This document shows positions 44,271 to 57,103 of a DNA stretch of 64,000 nt, piece by piece. The notes beneath the pieces are model-generated. The model was given only the letters and a program-made list of their open reading frames with translations. It was not told the DNA's origin and ran no database searches. Each line of letters starts with the position of its first letter. Position 1 is the first letter of the stretch. Position numbers and translations under genes: made by a program. This stretch comes from Moheibacter sediminis (GTDB lineage: Bacteria; Bacteroidota; Bacteroidia; Flavobacteriales; Weeksellaceae). The stretch lies in contig NZ_FWXS01000002.1 in NCBI RefSeq assembly GCF_900176425.1, positions 62,001 to 126,000 on the forward strand. Reading direction: 5' to 3'.

Positions 44271-44287
44271 AAACTTTGACAAAGTTT
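44271..44287. repeat. 17-bp palindrome AAACTTTGACAAAGTTT
   Basis: Perfect 8+1+8 palindrome between the vWA terminator and the response regulator stop, overlapping that stop by two bases. Related sequence forms the terminator stem at 25038-25069 and an imperfect copy is at 46870-46884, so this is a recurring element. Confidence 0.5.
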
Positions 44288-44966
44288 AATTAGTGATTTT
44301 AAATTTAAACCCAATTCCATGCAGGTTTTCGATAGAAACAGAATCATCATCCACAAAAATTTTACGCAATCGGGAAATGAAAACATCTAAACTTCTTCCC
44401 ATGAAATAATCATCGTCGCCCCAAAGTGCTTTCAAAATTTCTTCGCGCTTGAGGACGGAATTTTTATTTTCTAAGAAAAATTTGAGAAGTTCAGATTCGC
44501 GCTGAGTTAACGTAATGACTTCACTTTCATGTGAAAGCCTATAATTTTTCGAATCAAAAACATATTTTCCGACTTTAGGTAAATAAGTTTTAAAATTGTT
44601 TTTCTGTGTTCGTTTCAGGAAAATTTCAATTTTCAGAACTAATTCCTCGATGCTGAAAGGTTTTATCAAATAATCATCCGCACCGATTTTCAGACCTTTG
44701 ATGCGGTCTTCTTTCAGTGTTTTGGCTGAAATAAAAATAATTGGAATTTCAGAATTCAAATTCCTGATTTCCTGCGCCAATTCAAATCCGTCCAATTTCG
44801 GCATCATGATGTCAAATAAACAAATGTCAAACGAATCTGATTTGAACATTTCCAGAGCAGATTTCCCGTCTGCACAATGCACAACTTCGTAATTGGGTTC
44901 CAAATTGTCCTGCGTCAAAAAAGCAATCGTTTCGTCATCTTCTGCGTATAAAATTCTGTATTTCAT
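44286..44966 (-). CDS. OmpR-family response regulator (RprY-like)
   Basis: This 226-residue regulator has an N-terminal receiver (YRILYAEDDETIAFLTQDNL, phosphoacceptor Asp52 in FDIMMPKLDG, Thr/Ser in IFISAKT, Lys in YLIKPFS) and a C-terminal winged helix (ITLTQRESELLKFFLENKNSVLKREEIL, SRLRKIFVDDDSVSIENLHGIGFKF). It is encoded 3 nt after its histidine kinase, transcribed together from 46226. The pair resembles RprXY of Bacteroidota, but I cannot confirm orthology. Likely targets include the divergent DUF1573 gene through the repeats at 46270-46308. Confidence 0.92.
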   Translation of the reverse strand: MKYRILYAEDDETIAFLTQDNLEPNYEVVHCADGKSALEMFKSDSFDICLFDIMMPKLDGFELAQEIRNLNSEIPIIFISAKTLKEDRIKGLKIGADDYLIKPFSIEELVLKIEIFLKRTQKNNFKTYLPKVGKYVFDSKNYRLSHESEVITLTQRESELLKFFLENKNSVLKREEILKALWGDDDYFMGRSLDVFISRLRKIFVDDDSVSIENLHGIGFKFKITN

Positions 44967-44969
44967 GAT

Positions 44970-46226
44970 TTAAGAATTTGGAAAAATAATGGAAATCGTC
45001 AAGCCTTTGTCTGAATTATTTTTGGCAGAAATCTTCCAATGATGCTGCTGAATTATTTTTTTTACATAAAATAAACCCAATCCGAAACCATTTACTTCTG
45101 TACTTTTTTTGTTGGAAACACGGTAAAATTTATCAAATATAAATGAAATATTTTTCGATGGAATTCCAATTCCATTGTCAGAAAAATCTAGCCTTAATTC
45201 TTTGTTTTTTCTTGTCGAAGTAATTTTTATTTCAGGATTTTCATCGCTGTACTTTATGGAATTGTCGAATAAATTATGCACAACATTGGTAAAGTGAAAT
45301 TCATCCGCTTTTATAGTTTCATCAGGATTTACCTCAATTTCAACTTTTAAATTTTCATGTTTCATCAGCATTGGTTCAACAATTTCATTCAATAAAGAAA
45401 ACAAATGAATTTTTATAGGATTGATTGCTAATGCAGATTCGTCATTTCGGGCGATGTTTAGAATTTTCTCAATGTGGTTATTGAGCTTTTTTCCTTGTGT
45501 TGTAATGATCGAAGTATAATTATTTAATTTTGAATCATTTTGAATCAAATCCTGATTGCTCAAATAATTGGAAGCGAGTAGGATAGAGGAGAGGGGAGTT
45601 TTGAATTCGTGCGTCATATTGTTGATGAAATCACGCTGCAATTCCGAATATTTTTTATGTTGAATGATCGTATAAATGGAATAAACATATACCAAAAGTA
45701 TCACAATCAGCGCAAAAGAAAGCACAAACCAAAACTGCAAAGAACTGATCAGATACGAGGTTTCTTGCGGAAATCGAATCGCAAAATAATAAACCAAATC
45801 ATTTGATTTCGGAAATTCAATCGTTCTTTTCGGCGTTAAATCATCATCAATCGAAATGTATTTTCCATACATCATATCATCACTTTCGCAATTGTAAATC
45901 GCATATTCATAATCAGTTACGATATTAAATTTTGAAAATTCTGTTTTGAGGTAATGTTCCAGAACTTTGGGCTCGATGTTGTCATTTACGTTGACGATGT
46001 AGTAATCGTTTGAAATTCTTTGGATTAAATCTTTGGTGGAAAATTCATGACCGTTGTTTTCGTACAATTCTCGCGCAACTTCGAGCAAAGCGATATGAAC
46101 CTTTTGAGAGAATTTTTTTTCTTCCAAAGTAAATGCTTTGTACGTCCAAATCAATTGCGCAATCAGAATCCCGATGGTCGCAATCAAGCCGAGAACGATG
46201 ATGATATTTAGTTTTTTGATGTTCAT
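44970..46226 (-). CDS. Sensor histidine kinase (RprX-like)
   Basis: This 418-residue inner-membrane kinase has one helix near residues 7-30, a periplasmic sensor of ~130 residues, a second helix near 165-190 (SLQFWFVLSFALIVILLVYVYSIY), then the kinase core: H box NNMTHEFKTPLSSI, N box VVHNLFDNSIKYS, G1 LDFSDNGIGIP and G2 NGFGLGLFYVKKI. No HAMP or PAS domain that I recognise. First gene of the two-component operon. Upstream is the shared control region with the DUF1573 gene. Confidence 0.93.
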   Translation of the reverse strand: MNIKKLNIIIVLGLIATIGILIAQLIWTYKAFTLEEKKFSQKVHIALLEVARELYENNGHEFSTKDLIQRISNDYYIVNVNDNIEPKVLEHYLKTEFSKFNIVTDYEYAIYNCESDDMMYGKYISIDDDLTPKRTIEFPKSNDLVYYFAIRFPQETSYLISSLQFWFVLSFALIVILLVYVYSIYTIIQHKKYSELQRDFINNMTHEFKTPLSSILLASNYLSNQDLIQNDSKLNNYTSIITTQGKKLNNHIEKILNIARNDESALAINPIKIHLFSLLNEIVEPMLMKHENLKVEIEVNPDETIKADEFHFTNVVHNLFDNSIKYSDENPEIKITSTRKNKELRLDFSDNGIGIPSKNISFIFDKFYRVSNKKSTEVNGFGLGLFYVKKIIQQHHWKISAKNNSDKGLTISIIFPNS

Positions 46227-46381: not shown

Positions 46382-46792
46382 ATGAAAATTCTAAAAACGA
46401 CTTTAATTGCACTTTCATTGGCAGTAATTCCGGTTTCTGCTTCAGTTGTAAATGTAAACACAATCATCGAAAATCTTGTTGATGCGGTGATTTCTTGGAA
46501 ATCTGAAACGATTGACGTTGGACAAATTCCACAAGGAACTCCCAAAACCATCAAATTTGAATTTACAAACGCGACTGCAAAACCGGTTTTGGTAACGAAT
46601 GTGAAAGCTGCTTGTGGTTGTACTGCAACGGATTATAGCAAAGAACCAATCGCTCCGGGAAAAACGGGATATGTAAATGCAATTTATAATGCAGCGAATG
46701 CGGGTGCGTTTACCAAAAGTGTAACCGTAACTACAAGTGACAGCGATGCTCCTAAAAAATTGACCTTCAAAGGAACAGTTGTCGCAAAATAA
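46382..46792 (+). CDS. DUF1573 secreted protein
   Basis: This 136-residue protein has a signal peptide (MKILKTTLIALSLAVIPVSAS) and the DUF1573 domain, an Ig-like/ASPM-type fold: SETIDVGQIPQGTPKTIKFEFTNATAKPVLVTNVKAACGCTATDYSKEPIAPGKTGYVNAIYN and KSVTVTTSDSDAPKKLTFKGTV. The CGC motif is conserved. Such proteins are common periplasmic or surface proteins of Bacteroidota without a known enzyme activity. It is divergent from the two-component operon and ends at a strong terminator. Confidence 0.92.
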   Translation: MKILKTTLIALSLAVIPVSASVVNVNTIIENLVDAVISWKSETIDVGQIPQGTPKTIKFEFTNATAKPVLVTNVKAACGCTATDYSKEPIAPGKTGYVNAIYNAANAGAFTKSVTVTTSDSDAPKKLTFKGTVVAK

Positions 46793-50767: not shown

Positions 50768-51706
50768 ATGACAAATAATATAACTAATTTATTTAAGATA
50801 AAATACCCGATTGTACAAGGCGGAATGATTTGGAACAGCGGCTGGAGACTAGCTTCAGCAGTGAGTAATTGCGGAGGCCTCGGATTGCTGGGAGCCGGGA
50901 GTATGTATCCTGATGTTTTGAAAGAACATATAAAGAAGTGTAAACTCGCGACTGACAAACCATTTGGTGTCAATCTGCCGATGCTTTATCCTGACATTGA
51001 CCAACATATAAAAACCATAATAGAAGAAAAAATTCCGGTCGTTTTTACATCAGCCGGAAACCCAAAAACATGGACTGAAACCCTGAAAAAAGAAGGAATT
51101 ATAGTGGTTCATGTAGTGAGCAGCGCGAAATTTGCTTTGAAGTCTCAGGAAGCCGGAGTAGATGCAGTTGTGGCAGAAGGTTTTGAAGCAGGCGGACATA
51201 ATGGCAGAGAAGAGACAACGACTTTTTGTCTGATTCCCGATGTAAAACGCAAAATTGAAATTCCATTGATAGCTGCCGGAGGAATCGGAACAGGAAGACA
51301 AATCCTTGCTGCAATGGTTTTAGGAGCAGACGGCGTGCAAATCGGTTCACGTTTTGCGGCAACTTTTGAATCTTCTTCGCATGATTTGTTTAAACAAGAA
51401 ATAGTAAAAGCGGAGGAAGGAGCAACGGTTTTGACTTTGAAGGAATTGGCTCCTGTACGATTGATTAAAAATTCATTTTATGAAGAAATTCAAAATGCAT
51501 ATTCGAATTGTGCAACAAAAGAAGATTTAATCAATTTACTCGGAAGAGCCAGAGCCAAACGTGGGATGTTTGAAGGCGATTTGATAAATGGTGAAATCGA
51601 AATAGGGCAGGTTTCTTCTTTGATTGACGATGTGAAATCTGTGAAATCTGTTTTTGAAGAGTTTGTGAATGAGATTCATAACTTTAATTTCGATTTTAAA
51701 ATTTAA
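50768..51706 (+). CDS. NAD(P)H-dependent flavin oxidoreductase, nitronate monooxygenase family
   Basis: This 312-residue TIM-barrel flavoprotein has ITNLFKIKYPIVQGGMIWNSG at the N-terminus, SNCGGLGLLGAGSM, KPFGVNLPMLYPD, VVFTSAGNP, VVAEGFEAGGHNGREETTTFCLIPDV (catalytic His region), IPLIAAGGIGTGRQILAAMVLGADGVQIGSRFAAT (FMN phosphate site) and a C-terminal helical part. Family members oxidise nitronates or act as enoyl reductases (FabK-like); the actual substrate is not evident. ATG 50768 is chosen from homology and the promoter box. Confidence 0.9.
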   Translation: MTNNITNLFKIKYPIVQGGMIWNSGWRLASAVSNCGGLGLLGAGSMYPDVLKEHIKKCKLATDKPFGVNLPMLYPDIDQHIKTIIEEKIPVVFTSAGNPKTWTETLKKEGIIVVHVVSSAKFALKSQEAGVDAVVAEGFEAGGHNGREETTTFCLIPDVKRKIEIPLIAAGGIGTGRQILAAMVLGADGVQIGSRFAATFESSSHDLFKQEIVKAEEGATVLTLKELAPVRLIKNSFYEEIQNAYSNCATKEDLINLLGRARAKRGMFEGDLINGEIEIGQVSSLIDDVKSVKSVFEEFVNEIHNFNFDFKI

Positions 51707-51717
51707 ATAATAAAATA

Positions 51718-51735
51718 GCAGGATTTCAGTCCTGC
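51718..51735 (+). terminator. Weak hairpin after the flavin oxidoreductase gene
   Basis: GCAGGA (51718-51723) pairs with TCCTGC (51730-51735), loop 6 nt, followed by CATTAAAATATT rather than a clear T-run. A weak terminator at best. Confidence 0.4.
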
Positions 51736-51939
51736 CATTAAAATATTATTTACTAATGGCTCGGGGCTTGAAGATAGTGGCAGTTAAGAAAACAGAGACT
51801 TTCAATTTTCCTCCAATTTTGGCATAAGCTATTTGCTAAATTATCAAAAAAGAGTAAATAAAAAGAGCTTTTGAGACAAAAGGAAACGCTGTATTAGTAT
51901 TTCCTTGTTTTTACCAAACTATTAATTATGACTACTATT

Positions 51940-53037
51940 TTATTCGGAAAAATTTTCAAATCTTTTACCATCGTAACGAAAGAGCCCGCAGTTTCGTGTG
52001 CCAATCCAGAGGTTTCCATTGCGATCTTCAAGCATGTTCCATACTGAATTTTTACTCATATCGTCTTTGGTTGTAAAATTTTCAAAGGTTTTTCCATCGT
52101 AACGCCATAATCCATCTATGCTTTCTATTGAATTGATTTTTTCGCCTCCGTCAAACCAGATATTTCCAATTTTGTCTCTGAAAATGGCGGAACCGATATT
52201 TGTTTTTTCTGTAAACATTTTAAATTCCTGACCATCATAACGGAACACTCCGTTATGTCTGCCGCTGAACCAGATGTGTCCGTTCTTATCTTCCAGCATA
52301 TACCTGATCCACCCGTCATTATTGGGTTTAGTACTCGTTATGGATTTTCCGTCATAACGTATAATACCTTCTTCGGCAATGGGTCCGGAACCTATCCAGA
52401 TTGTTCCATTGTTATCTTCCAATAAGCATTGTATCCATTTAAGCTGAAGATTTTGATGGTTTGCAATGCCAATCTTGTCCAAAAATCGGCTAAACGATCT
52501 TCCATCATAGCAATACAAATCCAGCGAAGTGCCAAACCAGATTGTTCCACTTTTATCCTGCATCATACTCCACACTTCATTCTTGCCTGACTGAGATGTT
52601 GCAATTTCTAAACCATTTAAGCTGGTAATCGTAAACGGAATTTTTGAAATAATCTTTCCATCGTAACGGCTAATGCCATCGTCCGTTCCAAACCAAATAT
52701 TTCCTAAACTATCTTCCAGAATAGACCAAACTTTATTATTACTTAAACCATCTTCTTCTGTAAACTGCGTAAATTCTTTTCCATCATATCGGTAAACACC
52801 TTCGCCCGTTGTACCAAACCAAAGGTTGCCGTCTTTGTCTTGCAAACTACAATGAACGTTTTGATATATATCGGTGCCTTGTGTTTTGGTCAGCTTTATA
52901 TTTTTACTTGTGAATGATAGTCGATCAATGACCACTTTATCTGGTTGTTGTGTTTGGGTTTGTCCGTTGCAGGAGATGAAAAATGTTGACACCAGCAGTA
53001 AAAAGAAAACTGGATTTTTGAATGTAAGCTTCCTCAT
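51940..53037 (-). CDS. Two-component-regulator-type beta-propeller lipoprotein
   Basis: This 365-residue predicted lipoprotein has lipobox FFISCN (Cys23). It is made of propeller repeats of the type DxxGNLWFGTxxxGxYRYDGKxFxxFTxxDGLSNNxVWSILED, about seven in a row. Such propellers normally form the sensor half of hybrid two-component proteins in Bacteroidota; here there is no kinase domain. A second, similar gene (53057) lies upstream and a serine hydrolase upstream of that, all on one strand. It likely sits in the outer leaflet of a membrane and binds a ligand; inference. Confidence 0.87.
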   Translation of the reverse strand: MRKLTFKNPVFFLLLVSTFFISCNGQTQTQQPDKVVIDRLSFTSKNIKLTKTQGTDIYQNVHCSLQDKDGNLWFGTTGEGVYRYDGKEFTQFTEEDGLSNNKVWSILEDSLGNIWFGTDDGISRYDGKIISKIPFTITSLNGLEIATSQSGKNEVWSMMQDKSGTIWFGTSLDLYCYDGRSFSRFLDKIGIANHQNLQLKWIQCLLEDNNGTIWIGSGPIAEEGIIRYDGKSITSTKPNNDGWIRYMLEDKNGHIWFSGRHNGVFRYDGQEFKMFTEKTNIGSAIFRDKIGNIWFDGGEKINSIESIDGLWRYDGKTFENFTTKDDMSKNSVWNMLEDRNGNLWIGTRNCGLFRYDGKRFENFSE

Positions 53038-53056
53038 GTATAATTATTTTTATAGT

Positions 53057-54202
53057 TCATTTTTGTCCAATAGTAACTTTCTCAAATTTTTCTCCGTTGA
53101 ATTTGCGTACACCTTCTCCTTCTGTTATAAACCATAAATCACCTTTACTGTCTTTATAGATGGTGTTCATTTTGTTATTTTCAATGCCATCTTTTGTTGT
53201 GAAATTCCGTAAGTTTCTCCCGCCTGTCGTGAGCGTATCCGAAGTGTTATAACTCCAGACTCCGGCGTCAATTGTACCTATCCAAAGGGTTCCATTCCGG
53301 TCTTCGTTGATGGCCCAGACCCGTGCAAGGTTTTCAGAGTTTTTGGATGTATTTGTTTTTTTCAGGAATTCAGGATTGCTTAATCCTTTTTCTTCGGTGA
53401 AATTTGTCAGCTTTTTCCCATCATAGCGGAATAGCCCGTAACCATTATTGCCAAACCAGAGATTGCCTTTGCTGTCTTGAAATATTGTACGTACCGCAGC
53501 GCCACTTAATCCTTTTTCAGTAAAGTAGGTAAATGCTTCGCCATCGTAGCGGCATACGCCCTTTTGATCCGTACCAAACCAAAGATTACCTGCTTTATCT
53601 TTGAGCATACAATAAATACCATAAGGCCGGTCTAAGTTGGAAGCAGAGGTTTGATAGTGGGAAGGATGAATCGGAAATTTTGTAAATATTACTCCATCGT
53701 ATTGATACACAATCCCTTCGTTTTCAAAAAAGAGATGATCGCTTTTATAGTGCAGGTTTTCTTTCGAGATGGCTTTTAAAGTATGTGCATAATTACTAAA
53801 AAATCCGGTATTAAATTTACAAAGACCTTGGCTGGTACTGAACCACAAATTACCCGCAGCATCTTCTTGAATAGCCGAAACATGGTTACTGCCCAAACCA
53901 TCCTGCTCTGTCAATTGTATTAAAGAAACTCCATCATACTTATAAATACCATCGCCATTGGTTCCAAACCAATAATGGCCGTTTTTATCTTGCAGCATAC
54001 AAAGGATATTTTCGCTTAGTTTGTTAACAACCTTCGTACTAAAATCAATAGTATGTACTTTGTTATCGACTGGTTTCTCTTTCACTGCTATTATATTCTG
54101 AGGATTGCTTTGTCCGTTACACGAATTAAGGAGTAGGAGCAGCAACCATACTCCGGTCGTAATCCATCCGGTATTTTTGTATATCATTTTTAGTTTTATC
54201 AT
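53057..54202 (-). CDS. Second beta-propeller lipoprotein, paralogue of the gene at 51940
   Basis: This ~381-residue lipoprotein has lipobox LLNSCN after a hydrophobic run (GVWLLLLLLNSC). It repeats the same propeller blades: MLQDKNGHYWFGTNGDGIYKYDGVSL, IQEDAAGNLWFSTSQGLCKF, MLKDKAGNLWFGTDQKGVCRYDGEAF, IFQDSKGNLWFGNNGYGLFRYDGKKL, WAINEDRNGTLWIGTIDAGVWSY and IYKDSKGDLWFITEGEGVRKFNGE. The two are adjacent tandem paralogues. The start could be ATG 54202 or 54187; I give 54202. The upstream frame to 54262 is not supported. A serine hydrolase gene precedes it. Confidence 0.85.
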   Translation of the reverse strand: MIKLKMIYKNTGWITTGVWLLLLLLNSCNGQSNPQNIIAVKEKPVDNKVHTIDFSTKVVNKLSENILCMLQDKNGHYWFGTNGDGIYKYDGVSLIQLTEQDGLGSNHVSAIQEDAAGNLWFSTSQGLCKFNTGFFSNYAHTLKAISKENLHYKSDHLFFENEGIVYQYDGVIFTKFPIHPSHYQTSASNLDRPYGIYCMLKDKAGNLWFGTDQKGVCRYDGEAFTYFTEKGLSGAAVRTIFQDSKGNLWFGNNGYGLFRYDGKKLTNFTEEKGLSNPEFLKKTNTSKNSENLARVWAINEDRNGTLWIGTIDAGVWSYNTSDTLTTGGRNLRNFTTKDGIENNKMNTIYKDSKGDLWFITEGEGVRKFNGEKFEKVTIGQK

Positions 54203-54271
54203 GAATGTATTATTAAATCCGGTATTACTAAAATACTTAAAATCATTAATCAATTCTTCCAATAACTCCTT

Positions 54272-55459
54272 TTAGTCTGACTTGCCTTTAATCTGTTGGG
54301 GTTTTGCAAAACCTTCCCAGTCATATACCAGTGCTATGCTGTTGAGCAACTCTAATAAAATAGTACCATCCTCTGAATTGACAAACAAAACTACTCCCTT
54401 TCCATTGGTTAAGCCTGCAATGTAAAAGCCACTGAAACCCTGGTTACGGGCATCATGAAAAAAGTATTTTTCACCATTTCTGTCCTGTAAAAATGTTCCC
54501 ATCGCTGCGCTTTCATCTCCATAAGGTGTCAAATGTAATCCGGCTATTTCCTGATTCAAAACCTTTGATGATAGCCCTTTGTAAGCCAGCTGCATTTCAA
54601 TGATGTATTTACCGATATCCGTTGGTGTCGTCCACAATCCGGCAGCAGCTTTTTCCGGATACACAAAATACTTTCCCGGGACTTCAGCCCCGTTCCTTTC
54701 ATAACCTGTTGCCAGATTTTTCTGTTGGTCGGCTGGAGGTGGCTGGTTGTAAAAACTATTAGACATGCCCAATGGCTTAAGGACATTTTTATACATAAAC
54801 TGCTCATAAGGCTGTTGGGTAATATCGGTAAGTATTTGCTGGGAAATGAGAATACCTCCTCCGGAATAGCTGAATGCTGTGCCAGGTTCTGTCAGAGAAC
54901 GTATCGGTGGTGTGTTTGCGGGATACTTACCGTCTAAAATCTCTGTAATTCCTGGAATGATACTATTCCTTTCATAACCGGGAAAACCATAAACCGATAC
55001 GCCTGCAGTATGGCTTAGCAATTGTGCAGTTGTAATTTTTTTGTTGTTTGACAGTGTGTCATAAGGAAATGTCCATGAGGTTAAATACCGGTTGATGTCC
55101 TCATGGAGATTTAGTTTACCATGTTGCGCCAATTGTAAAACTCCAATTGCATTTAAGGACTTACTAATGGAGCCGGGTTCAAACAAAGTGTTGGTTGTTA
55201 CTTTCCTGTTTTCCTTTTTGTCAGCATAGCCATATCCTTTTGCCCAAACAATCTGGTAGTTGTCAATAACAGCGATACTTAATCCGGTTACATTGTAATG
55301 CTTCATTCTTTCCTGAATATGGTAACCGTCCATGACGACACCTCCCGAAAGATTGTTTTCAACCCGGGTTATTTGTTCCTTTACAGTATTGGAGTATTGT
55401 TGTGCTATGGCTGTCGTCAGACCATGAAAAAGCAGAACAGTAAAACAGAGTTTTCTCAT
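54272..55459 (-). CDS. Serine hydrolase, beta-lactamase/class C PBP-like, secreted
   Basis: This 395-residue protein begins MRKLCFTVLLFHGLTTAIAQ, a signal peptide. The catalytic SxxK is SISK (Ser97, Lys100) in LFEPGSISKSLNAIGVLQLAQHGKL. The second motif is the Tyr of FSYSGGGI. A third His-Gly-like region is EKYFFHDARNQGFSGFYI. These are typical of class C beta-lactamase-type peptidases and esterases; beta-lactam resistance should not be assumed. The frame is open to 55666 but the earlier part has no signal features. First gene of a three-gene operon with the two propeller lipoproteins. Confidence 0.88.
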   Translation of the reverse strand: MRKLCFTVLLFHGLTTAIAQQYSNTVKEQITRVENNLSGGVVMDGYHIQERMKHYNVTGLSIAVIDNYQIVWAKGYGYADKKENRKVTTNTLFEPGSISKSLNAIGVLQLAQHGKLNLHEDINRYLTSWTFPYDTLSNNKKITTAQLLSHTAGVSVYGFPGYERNSIIPGITEILDGKYPANTPPIRSLTEPGTAFSYSGGGILISQQILTDITQQPYEQFMYKNVLKPLGMSNSFYNQPPPADQQKNLATGYERNGAEVPGKYFVYPEKAAAGLWTTPTDIGKYIIEMQLAYKGLSSKVLNQEIAGLHLTPYGDESAAMGTFLQDRNGEKYFFHDARNQGFSGFYIAGLTNGKGVVLFVNSEDGTILLELLNSIALVYDWEGFAKPQQIKGKSD

Positions 55460-55519
55460 ATTGAATTTTATTAGCTTTGTGTATGAATTAAAAAGGGATA
55501 ATTTTTTAGAGAGGTACGT

Positions 55520-55628
55520 TGTAAATAGCGTGTGATATAACAAAGCTATCTGTAATCCTTTCTGTGCATGCGAAAAGAGTGTAAAAAGCTTGTAAAACAT
55601 TGTAAATAATGTGTAAAATGTATTTACA
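55520..55628. promoter_or_regulatory. Helically phased TGTAAA direct repeats in a divergent promoter region
   Basis: TGTAAAA or TGTAAAT occurs at 55520-55526, 55580-55586, 55591-55597, 55601-55607 and 55612-55618: start-to-start spacing 60, 11, 10, 11 bp. A reversed copy TTTACA is at 55623-55628. The region separates the membrane-anchored regulator gene (55658, plus strand) from the hydrolase-propeller operon (55459, minus strand). This is the arrangement expected for an OmpR-type winged-helix protein; the adjacent gene encodes one. Confidence 0.55.
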
Positions 55629-55657
55629 TTGTAGGTTTTAGGGTAATATTGTACTGT

Positions 55658-56572
55658 ATGAAGCATTTTTACTATTTCTTATCGGTTGCCGTTTCATTGA
55701 TGCTATTTGTAGCAGCGATGGCATTTATGAACACAAAAAAAGAGCTTCCCGATAAGCATCTGGAAGTTGTGCTTCGTAATATCGGTCATGAATTATTGCT
55801 TCATTCCAAAGATTCTACCTCAAGGGTATTACCTGTCAAAATGATAAATGAACGTACCTATCAGATTTCTTTTGAGAACGGTTTTGGCTTTACACCCGAT
55901 ACTTTGATGCGTCTTGTACATCAACAATTGACAAAAACGGATATGCCAAAGGATTATATAGTGAGTGTAAATGACTGCCATGGAAATAAAACCATCTTTG
56001 CCTTTGAAATAAATACATTCAATGGCGATTTGAAACCCTGCGGAGGAAGAGAACAGGAAACAGGGTGTTATCTTATCCAGATTGAATTTTTAGCTAATGA
56101 TACATCTTTTAATTACGCCTGGCTTTTAACTGCATTTGTTCCCATAGCTTTTGCAGGTTTTTATCTGAATCGCCAACGAAATAAGCCGGAAACTGATAAA
56201 CCTGAAGTAAAAGAAACTATAGATGAAGAGGCATCTGTATCCGTTAATGATAACATTATTTCGGAGGTTTTGGAATATAAAGAATTAGGAGCATTCCGAT
56301 TTTATGATGTAAAAGGTATGCTTTGCCTTAATGATGCAACCATTGAACTTTCTGAAAAAGAGATTAAAGCTTTGAGCATATTTGCATCCAACCAAAATAT
56401 GGTAGTGGAAAGAGACAGGTTGAGGCAGGAGATATGGGAAGCTGAAGGTGTTTTTGTCATTAATCGAAATGTGGACGTGTTGGTATCCAAGTTACGTAAA
56501 AAATTAAGTGGTGATCCGTCTGTTAAGATTGTAAATGTACACGGTAAAGGGTATAGGTTTATAATAGAATAA
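55658..56572 (+). CDS. Membrane-anchored winged-helix regulator with periplasmic sensor (reverse ToxR-like)
   Basis: This 304-residue protein has an N-terminal helix (FYYFLSVAVSLMLFVAAMAF), a periplasmic region of ~120 residues (about 25-150, with Cys in VSVNDCHGN, LKPCGGREQETGCYLIQIEF), a second helix (YAWLLTAFVPIAFAGFYL) and a cytoplasmic C-terminal OmpR/PhoB-type winged helix (ATIELSEKEIKALSIFASNQNMVVERDRLRQEIWE, SKLRKKLSGDPSVKIVNVHGKGYRF). This puts the DNA-binding part at the C-terminus, opposite to ToxR. It lacks a receiver domain. The start is ATG 55658; a TTG lies nine bases upstream. It likely regulates the divergent operon through the phased repeats. Confidence 0.85.
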   Translation: MKHFYYFLSVAVSLMLFVAAMAFMNTKKELPDKHLEVVLRNIGHELLLHSKDSTSRVLPVKMINERTYQISFENGFGFTPDTLMRLVHQQLTKTDMPKDYIVSVNDCHGNKTIFAFEINTFNGDLKPCGGREQETGCYLIQIEFLANDTSFNYAWLLTAFVPIAFAGFYLNRQRNKPETDKPEVKETIDEEASVSVNDNIISEVLEYKELGAFRFYDVKGMLCLNDATIELSEKEIKALSIFASNQNMVVERDRLRQEIWEAEGVFVINRNVDVLVSKLRKKLSGDPSVKIVNVHGKGYRFIIE

Positions 56573-56692
56573 ATTGAGGGATTGTAGGAGTATCTGTTAA
56601 TATCAACAGCAAAGAGAGTTTAGATTTTAGGGATTCGTTTAATGAAAATAAAGACGAACTTTTGTAACAAATACAGCATGTCATACAGGCTA

Positions 56693-57103
56693 TTAATCGT
56701 TGTGGTTATATTTTTTATCTTGAATTACATAAAATAATAAAGATACATTTACAACTATATTTATCAGGACTATTGAGTTAACCAGTAAATTTCCATCACG
56801 ATTTTTAAAAATTGAAAATGCTAAAAACGCTAGAAATCCTAAACTAAATAAAACCAAAATACAAACCAGAAACTGCATGATAGTTTTATACGTATTCTCA
56901 TTGTCTAAGCTATGAAAAATTGTAATTGCCGGTAAAGTCACGATACTAAATAACAGAAACCATAATCCTGAATTATCATCATCAATTCCAACAACCAAAA
57001 ACTTTATAAGAAAAAATAAAGTAAATAAAACCAGAAGGGTTCTATAGGATATGGAAGCTATTTTATATGATTTAGTCATAGGGTATTTTGATATTTTGAG
57101 CAT
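56693..57103 (-). CDS. Hypothetical four-helix membrane protein
   Basis: This 136-residue protein has four predicted helices: ISYRTLLVLFTLFFLIKFLVVG, SGLWFLLFSIVTLPAITIFH, TIMQFLVCILVLFSLGFLAFLAFSIF and VNSIVLINIVVNVSLLFYVI, with a charged C-terminus. I do not recognise a family. An internal ATG at 57079 is an alternative start. It stands alone between two unrelated genes. Confidence 0.6.
   Translation of the reverse strand: MLKISKYPMTKSYKIASISYRTLLVLFTLFFLIKFLVVGIDDDNSGLWFLLFSIVTLPAITIFHSLDNENTYKTIMQFLVCILVLFSLGFLAFLAFSIFKNRDGNLLVNSIVLINIVVNVSLLFYVIQDKKYNHND

Follow-up and report, generated by a model that had tools for sequence, protein, structure and literature searches.

A helically phased array of four TGTAAA direct half-sites, which start at positions 55580, 55591, 55601 and 55612 (55580..55617, + strand) of the window, the whole 64,000-nucleotide stretch of Moheibacter sediminis DNA that was analysed, is considered with good confidence to be the operator of the adjacent transmembrane one-component transcription factor, which would activate the divergently transcribed operon. 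The half-sites follow one another in steps of 11, 10 and 11 bp in the window, and they are located in the intergenic region between the start codon of the regulator gene (ATG at 55658, +) and that of a divergent serine-hydrolase gene (ATG at 55459, -). The putative operator is assigned on the basis of sequence and conservation, and the operator interpretation put forward in an earlier note on this DNA is supported by the comparison of related loci, in which conserved repeats accompany a predicted OmpR/PhoB-type winged helix.

TGTAAA occurs 129 times in the window against a mean of 68.5 in dinucleotide shuffles, which is about twice the expectation on both strands, and lone copies therefore carry little weight. 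The three-copy pattern TGTAAAN{3,6}TGTAAAN{3,6}TGTAAA is matched in the whole 3.2 Mb genome by the array site only, as two overlapping matches, and the reversed control pattern gave 0 matches in the same genome. The earlier note had listed six hexamers in this region, five on the + strand (55520, 55580, 55591, 55601 and 55612) and a reversed TTTACA at 55623-55628, and all of these positions were confirmed; its spacing of 10-11 bp or a multiple of it holds for the four array copies but not for the fifth one at 55520, which sits 60 bp away from the array, corresponding to about 5.7 turns of 10.5 bp. This isolated copy (55520..55525, +) falls within the leader that is predicted for the divergent operon, and TGTAAA at the 60-bp distance was absent from all six nearest named relatives (L046-L051, among the best 80 of 577), so that it probably represents a chance occurrence outside the operator.

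Promoters were predicted with one motif, the Bacteroidota -7 box, and an E. coli-type sigma-70 scan was set aside. In the accessible parts of the sources, this box is given as TAnnTTTG at -12 to -5 in Flavobacterium psychrophilum (PMC9723704), with a further source for TAnnTTTG (PMC7366714), and TAnnTTGY is described as a variant of it (PMC9723704). On the - strand, TAGCTTTG at 55541..55548 corresponds to TAnnTTTG and is predicted from the motif to be the -7 box of the divergent operon, whose transcription would start at about 55536; the box of the window reads CAAAGCTA, and its gap to the first half-site is 31 bp. On the + strand, TACATTGT at 55625..55632 is a tentative -7 box of the regulator's own promoter, with a transcript start predicted near 55637, proposed from its sequence, its agreement with the TAnnTTGY variant and the conservation of TTTACAT, which is found 22-23 bp past the third repeat in L046-L050. 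TTTACA itself starts 22-23 bp past the third repeat in the window and in L046-L050, while L051 carries TTTACT, with one mismatch, 22 bp past its last repeat. Because the reversed copy at 55623-55628 overlaps this -7-like box, which includes most of it, the copy is more likely a part of the promoter than an operator half-site. Neither the reversed nor the fifth copy is thus likely to serve as a half-site, in view of the overlap with the promoter box and the missing equivalent of 55520 in L046-L051.

The regulator gene (55658..56572, +) encodes a membrane protein of 304 aa, for which a first helix at 2-24, a periplasmic sensor at about 28-147, a second helix at 153-174, a linker and a winged helix at about 205-304 were predicted. 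Its structural model has a mean pLDDT of 87.2, with low confidence in the linker region 183-202. In Pfam, Trans_reg_C was matched with 63 bits (cut-off 26.2) at 227-300 of the 303-residue query, and at E<=0.001 it was the sole family found, with no Response_reg, HisKA or HATPase_c. The modelled winged helix has as its tied best structural matches CadC (Z 15.6, 100 residues, 1.9 A), SaeR and ToxR (Z 15.4, 99 residues, 2.0 A), and PhoB 1gxp_E also matches it (Z 13.8, 100 aligned, 2.4 A). By sequence and model, the C-terminal domain is accordingly of the OmpR/PhoB type, in agreement with the earlier claim that the gene beside the repeats encodes an OmpR-type winged helix. The predicted helices and the DNA-binding domain in one chain place the protein in the broad class of transmembrane transcription regulators. 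The best NCBIfam match of the winged helix is RprY, with 73 bits far under the cut-off of 370, and CpxR reaches only 20 of 341 bits; as the regulator has no receiver, it is not a CpxR equivalog.

The conservation of the array was evaluated in 120 loci, comprising the window, 39 loci from genome searches at the levels of family, order and phylum, and 80 named loci, which are the best 80 of 577 confirmed stretches drawn by similarity with a 23-sequence alignment; an earlier contig scan of the named genomes with the single window protein had found no relatives. The 120 loci were reduced to 98 non-redundant ones at 85% protein identity, and an array was called from TGT[ACG]AA pairs spaced 9-12 or 20-23 bp apart between -300 and +60 of the regulator start. 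Loss of the repeats where the regulator gene is kept had been set as the refuting test in the earlier note; phased direct repeats were found beside the regulator gene in 96 of the 98 loci, window included (the named part being the best 80 of 577), and in 0 of 98 on the opposite strand. With a strict TGTAAA rule, the count was 91 of 98, again with 0 on the opposite strand. The two loci missed under the rule, L085 and L090, are both excluded from the 96 loci used for the phase. Three half-sites are present in 40 of these 96 arrays and four in 36. The named hosts among the best 80 of 577 include Chryseobacterium, Flavobacterium, Chitinophaga, Pedobacter, Mucilaginibacter, Emticicia and others, and MAGs with the labels Ignavibacteria and Kapaibacterium also had array loci. 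A script selected the start codons and ORFs, of which some are wrong (L048, L055, L079); parts of the analysis used subsets of the relatives, namely 22 of 39 (A1), 18 of 23 kinase relatives (A3), 64 of 66 listed named relatives (A4) and 55 of those 64 (A5). A chance or low-complexity origin in AT-rich DNA, to which the twofold excess of TGTAAA in the window might point, has a negligible probability given the sole such site in the genome and its retention beside the regulator on one strand only.

The spacing of 10-11 bp is not universal: it applies to the window, whereas Chryseobacterium-type loci have half-sites at 12+9 bp. This 12+9 spacing occurs in 30 loci, or 37 when a fourth copy is counted; it deviates from a single turn at each step, which counts against the proposed reading, although its two steps add up to two turns. 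In such loci, the middle half-site perhaps also contributes to the -7 element of the regulator gene itself. In Chryseobacterium/Flavobacterium-type loci, e.g., L007 and L080, the outer half-sites are exactly 21 bp apart.

Three genes, which presumably form one operon, constitute the candidate target of the array in the window. The first divergent gene (54272..55459, -) encodes a serine hydrolase (Pfam Beta-lactamase, PF00144) with an N-terminal signal-like segment, and the second (53057..54211, -) and third (51940..53037, -) each encode a Reg_prop beta-propeller that is a putative lipoprotein. A terminator-like hairpin past the third gene (51714..51739, -) is a weak prediction, as two such sites were found in 51700-56800 against a shuffle mean of 3.9. 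The two propellers show weak similarity to PorZ, at about 55 bits under a cut-off of 260.

Divergent ORFs in the named loci were defined as those of at least 100 aa within 450 bp, and 13 of the 80 loci had none, owing to a contig end in some and to an upstream gene pointing the opposite way in others. The 67 divergent products (best 80 of 577 loci) were assigned by Pfam to BNR (16), YceI (12), Reg_prop (6) and Beta-lactamase (3), with other families in smaller or overlapping numbers, and 18 of them form one cluster of small proteins that start like MKKVIYALILPLVVVSGLVFANRE. An N-terminal hydrophobic segment is present in 64 of the 67, compared with 269 of 533 other ORFs. The putative operator stays while the divergent gene changes, across about ten unrelated protein clusters.

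The array keeps a helical phase with the predicted divergent promoter. In 82 of 96 loci, a divergent -7 box (read as CAAANNTA) with at most one mismatch was located at a gap of 20-22 or 31-32 bp to the first half-site, compared with 1 of 96 at control gaps half a turn off, and 300 shuffles gave a mean of 4.4 and a maximum of 11; these 82 are not independent events, because the loci are related by descent. Exact boxes were present at the phased gaps in 37 of 96 loci versus 0 at the half-turn gaps, and none of the 96 arrays had one at gaps 23-30. For these gap measurements, the array ends had been extended by a looser half-site rule; before the extension, 38 exact boxes lay within 90 bp, at gaps of 22 (3), 31-32 (28) and 41-44 (7). 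A phased box was missing in 14 of 96 loci. As related loci are not independent, the phase was also counted per target cluster: among the non-redundant named loci (from the best 80 of 577) that have a divergent gene, 53 of 58 show it, and 10 of the 11 BLAST clusters of divergent proteins include one or more members in phase, the exception being L048, whose ORF is probably wrong.

The start of the array, just upstream of the divergent -7 box and not over it, speaks for activation. OmpR-family proteins can both activate and repress, and the regulator might instead bind the array and repress the divergent operon until its signal comes; this is considered unlikely, since the array begins at about -33 to -35 or at -44/-45, the usual place of an activator, and its start positions fall in two steps one turn apart. 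Less likely still is an array that only autorepresses the regulator gene, with the divergent operon not being a target. The last copy starts 21 bp before the regulator ATG in 27 of 96 loci, where binding should occlude the regulator's own promoter, and the window array overlaps its candidate own promoter; against these points stand the phase with the divergent -7 box in the great majority of loci and target clusters and the presence of operators before target-like genes with no regulator nearby.

Such orphan sites emerged from a search of 21 genomes, which gave 19 three-copy matches, 11 of them beside the regulator and eight for which tblastn found no regulator in the flanking 1.5 kb on each side. 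Five of the eight precede target-like genes (a hydrolase at L126, the MKK family at L132, L139 and L140, and a Reg_prop gene at L138), the families of all eight genes having been read from translations and not by search; of the remaining sites, L129 precedes a TPR/S41-like protein, and L136 and L142 look unrelated. An exact -7 box follows at a gap of 31 or 32 in L126, L129, L139 and L140 and of 23 in L136, and none was found at the sites L132, L138 and L142. Seven of the eight orphan sites are in genomes with the regulator elsewhere, and L136 is in a genus mate without it. The operators at L126, L132, L138, L139 and L140 thus look as if they were controlled in trans, or as if they were remnants after loss of the regulator. 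A tighter pattern, consisting of the -7 box and two repeats, gave seven matches in 10 genomes versus two control matches, and these seven comprise the window site, two regulator loci, three sites already matched by the three-copy pattern and the new site L169. A wide regulon in the window's own genome is not supported, because neither of these two strict patterns occurs elsewhere in it.

The distribution of the regulator is patchy: it was detected in 21 of 320 genomes of the host's taxonomic family at E<=1e-30 and, at E<=1e-40, in 16 of 395 genomes of the order and 11 of 395 of the phylum, and it was absent at E<=1e-30 from the five genus mates searched. The three-copy pattern tracks the gene, occurring in 20 of 21 family genomes with the regulator versus 28 of 299 without (Fisher P 1e-17), and the exact form TGTAAAWAAAAWTGTAAAYTTTGTAAA, which was derived from the regulator loci themselves, occurs in 19 of 21 versus 0 of 299. 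Among the 28 regulator-less genomes with a match, the 12+9 spacing with other letters was found in six and the 10-11 spacing in four, and spacing by itself is therefore no specific mark of the regulator. More distant relatives may be present in some of the 28, since only matches at E<=1e-30 among at most seven scored candidates per genome were counted. Three genomes with no detected regulator (G016, G221 and G253) have three-copy arrays with 10-11 bp spacing, apparently with four copies in G016, and these arrays could belong to more distant relatives, as their operators or as targets.

These 28 genomes also bear on the idea that another factor binds the repeats, e.g., the RprY-like response regulator encoded at 44286-44966 (-), which is of the same winged-helix family and whose kinase has a related sensor. 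Such a binder is regarded as quite improbable, because the three-copy pattern follows the regulator gene across the family and adjoins it in the loci.

In Puia dinghuensis and in MAGs labelled Chitinophagaceae or Bacteroidetes, related proteins share about 58-63% identity with the regulator, compared with 39-43% for the relatives in its own family, Chryseobacterium among them. This higher identity outside the family, together with the absence from five genus mates, suggests horizontal transfer of the gene. One locus, L047, whose regulator is 60% identical to that of the window, comes from a MAG titled Williamsia, the name of an actinobacterium, and this MAG is probably mislabelled or mixed.

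The response regulator mentioned above scores 243 bits against an NCBIfam RprY cut-off of 370 and adjoins a histidine kinase gene (44970-46226, -), and a DUF1573 gene (46382-46792) is divergent to this pair. Direct BLAST of the regulator against this kinase found no homology, while profile comparison of the soluble sensor domain with the sensor of the kinase gave P 6.4e-6 and a probability of 84.9%, compared with P 0.06-0.7 for 21 permuted or reversed controls. The homology rests on the soluble part, as the full-length comparison includes the membrane helices; by this profile evidence, the regulator sensor is distantly homologous to that of the kinase. The regulator seems to be a two-component system that has been condensed into a single membrane protein, a direction of descent that we infer, and the related long form, the kinase/response regulator pair, is found about 9-11 kb away from it. 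If this descent is right, the locus would clearly illustrate how a two-component system has been reduced to one protein while a related long form persists about 9 kb away.

The structure search with the complete model was occupied by winged-helix matches. Modelled alone, the sensor domain reaches a pLDDT of 90.3, and its searches returned no convincing match in the PDB (best Foldseek E 0.07; best Z 6.1, 92 residues, 3.6 A) and no match in Pfam up to E 1, a result that does not by itself establish a new fold. The sensor residues Cys107, Cys128 and Cys137 occur together in 95 of 98 loci; the other three lack both Cys107 and Cys137 and retain Cys128, a pattern from which a Cys107-Cys137 disulfide and a part for Cys128 in sensing may be proposed. 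As a tentative generalization, the locus could represent a widespread, unnamed class in Bacteroidota of collapsed two-component systems, in which a kinase sensor is fused to an RprY-like DNA-binding domain and travels with a portable operator-promoter module in helical phase, which has come to stand in front of roughly ten mutually unrelated clusters of exported proteins, and whose sensor may be a thiol/disulfide switch.

In the mechanism that we favour for the window, the periplasmic domain would sense a signal, which would reach the DNA-binding domain directly by way of the second membrane helix, with no phosphorylation step. The C-terminal winged helices would dock in head-to-tail order on the TGTAAA half-sites, of which each helical turn holds one, so that all of these would share the same side of the double helix. 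Several regulator molecules anchored in the membrane would contribute their winged helices to this row and attract RNA polymerase to the divergent promoter, and binding at about -44 to -81 of this promoter would activate the serine hydrolase and the two propeller lipoproteins. In the candidate promoter of the regulator itself, the array would overlap about -57 to -20, and because of this overlap the regulator probably controls its own gene as well.

Several known systems share parts of this architecture. ToxR and CadC are defined by an N-terminal winged helix, one membrane helix and a C-terminal periplasmic domain, and they resemble the regulator in uniting a sensor, a membrane helix and an OmpR-type winged helix in one protein; the topology here is inverted, with the winged helix C-terminal behind two hydrophobic helices, and the protein does not belong to their family. 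The searches made gave no match between its sensor and those of CadC or ToxR, a result that does not in itself prove them different. The hybrid two-component systems of Bacteroides, in which Reg_prop propellers occur, are likewise Bacteroidota membrane sensors with a DNA-binding output. However, hybrids keep the kinase and receiver, whereas the regulator has no HisKA, HATPase_c or receiver and falls outside this group, and the propellers here are separate candidate target proteins. RprX/RprY is linked to the regulator by RprY as the best NCBIfam match of its winged helix, but the regulator is devoid of receiver and kinase and, at 73 of 370 bits, is not an RprY response regulator.

With respect to the operator, the Pho box consists of direct repeats about one turn apart, which are bound by winged helices of the OmpR/PhoB type. 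The CpxR box is given as GTAAA(N)4-8GTAAA in the accessible part of PMC3158067, and the array resembles both boxes in its direct repeats about one helical turn apart and its predicted OmpR/PhoB-type binder, and shares the core GTAAA with the CpxR box; it differs in having mostly three to four half-sites, another regulator and a Bacteroidota-type promoter box. No binding motif for RprY is given in the accessible part of PMC3646045. Membrane one-component regulators, according to the accessible part of PMC10269533, are enriched in Bacteroidota, and their working is poorly understood. The parts of the present system are already known, membrane one-component regulators being widespread, and no description of this regulator family or operator was found in the open-access literature, most subscription papers being outside its scope. 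As the operator, the promoter phase and the candidate targets can be read from the sequence, operator recognition, regulon and signal can be tested directly in Flavobacterium laboratory strains.

A comparable fusion is Rsp of Neisseria gonorrhoeae, which derives from an NtrC-type pair. In the accessible part of PMC10269533, Rsp is described as the PilS receptor joined to the PilR DNA-binding domain, and the likeness lies in a kinase-type membrane sensor joined directly to the DNA-binding domain of a response regulator. The regulator described here differs from Rsp in its OmpR/PhoB winged helix, its presence in many Bacteroidota genera and its conserved putative operator.
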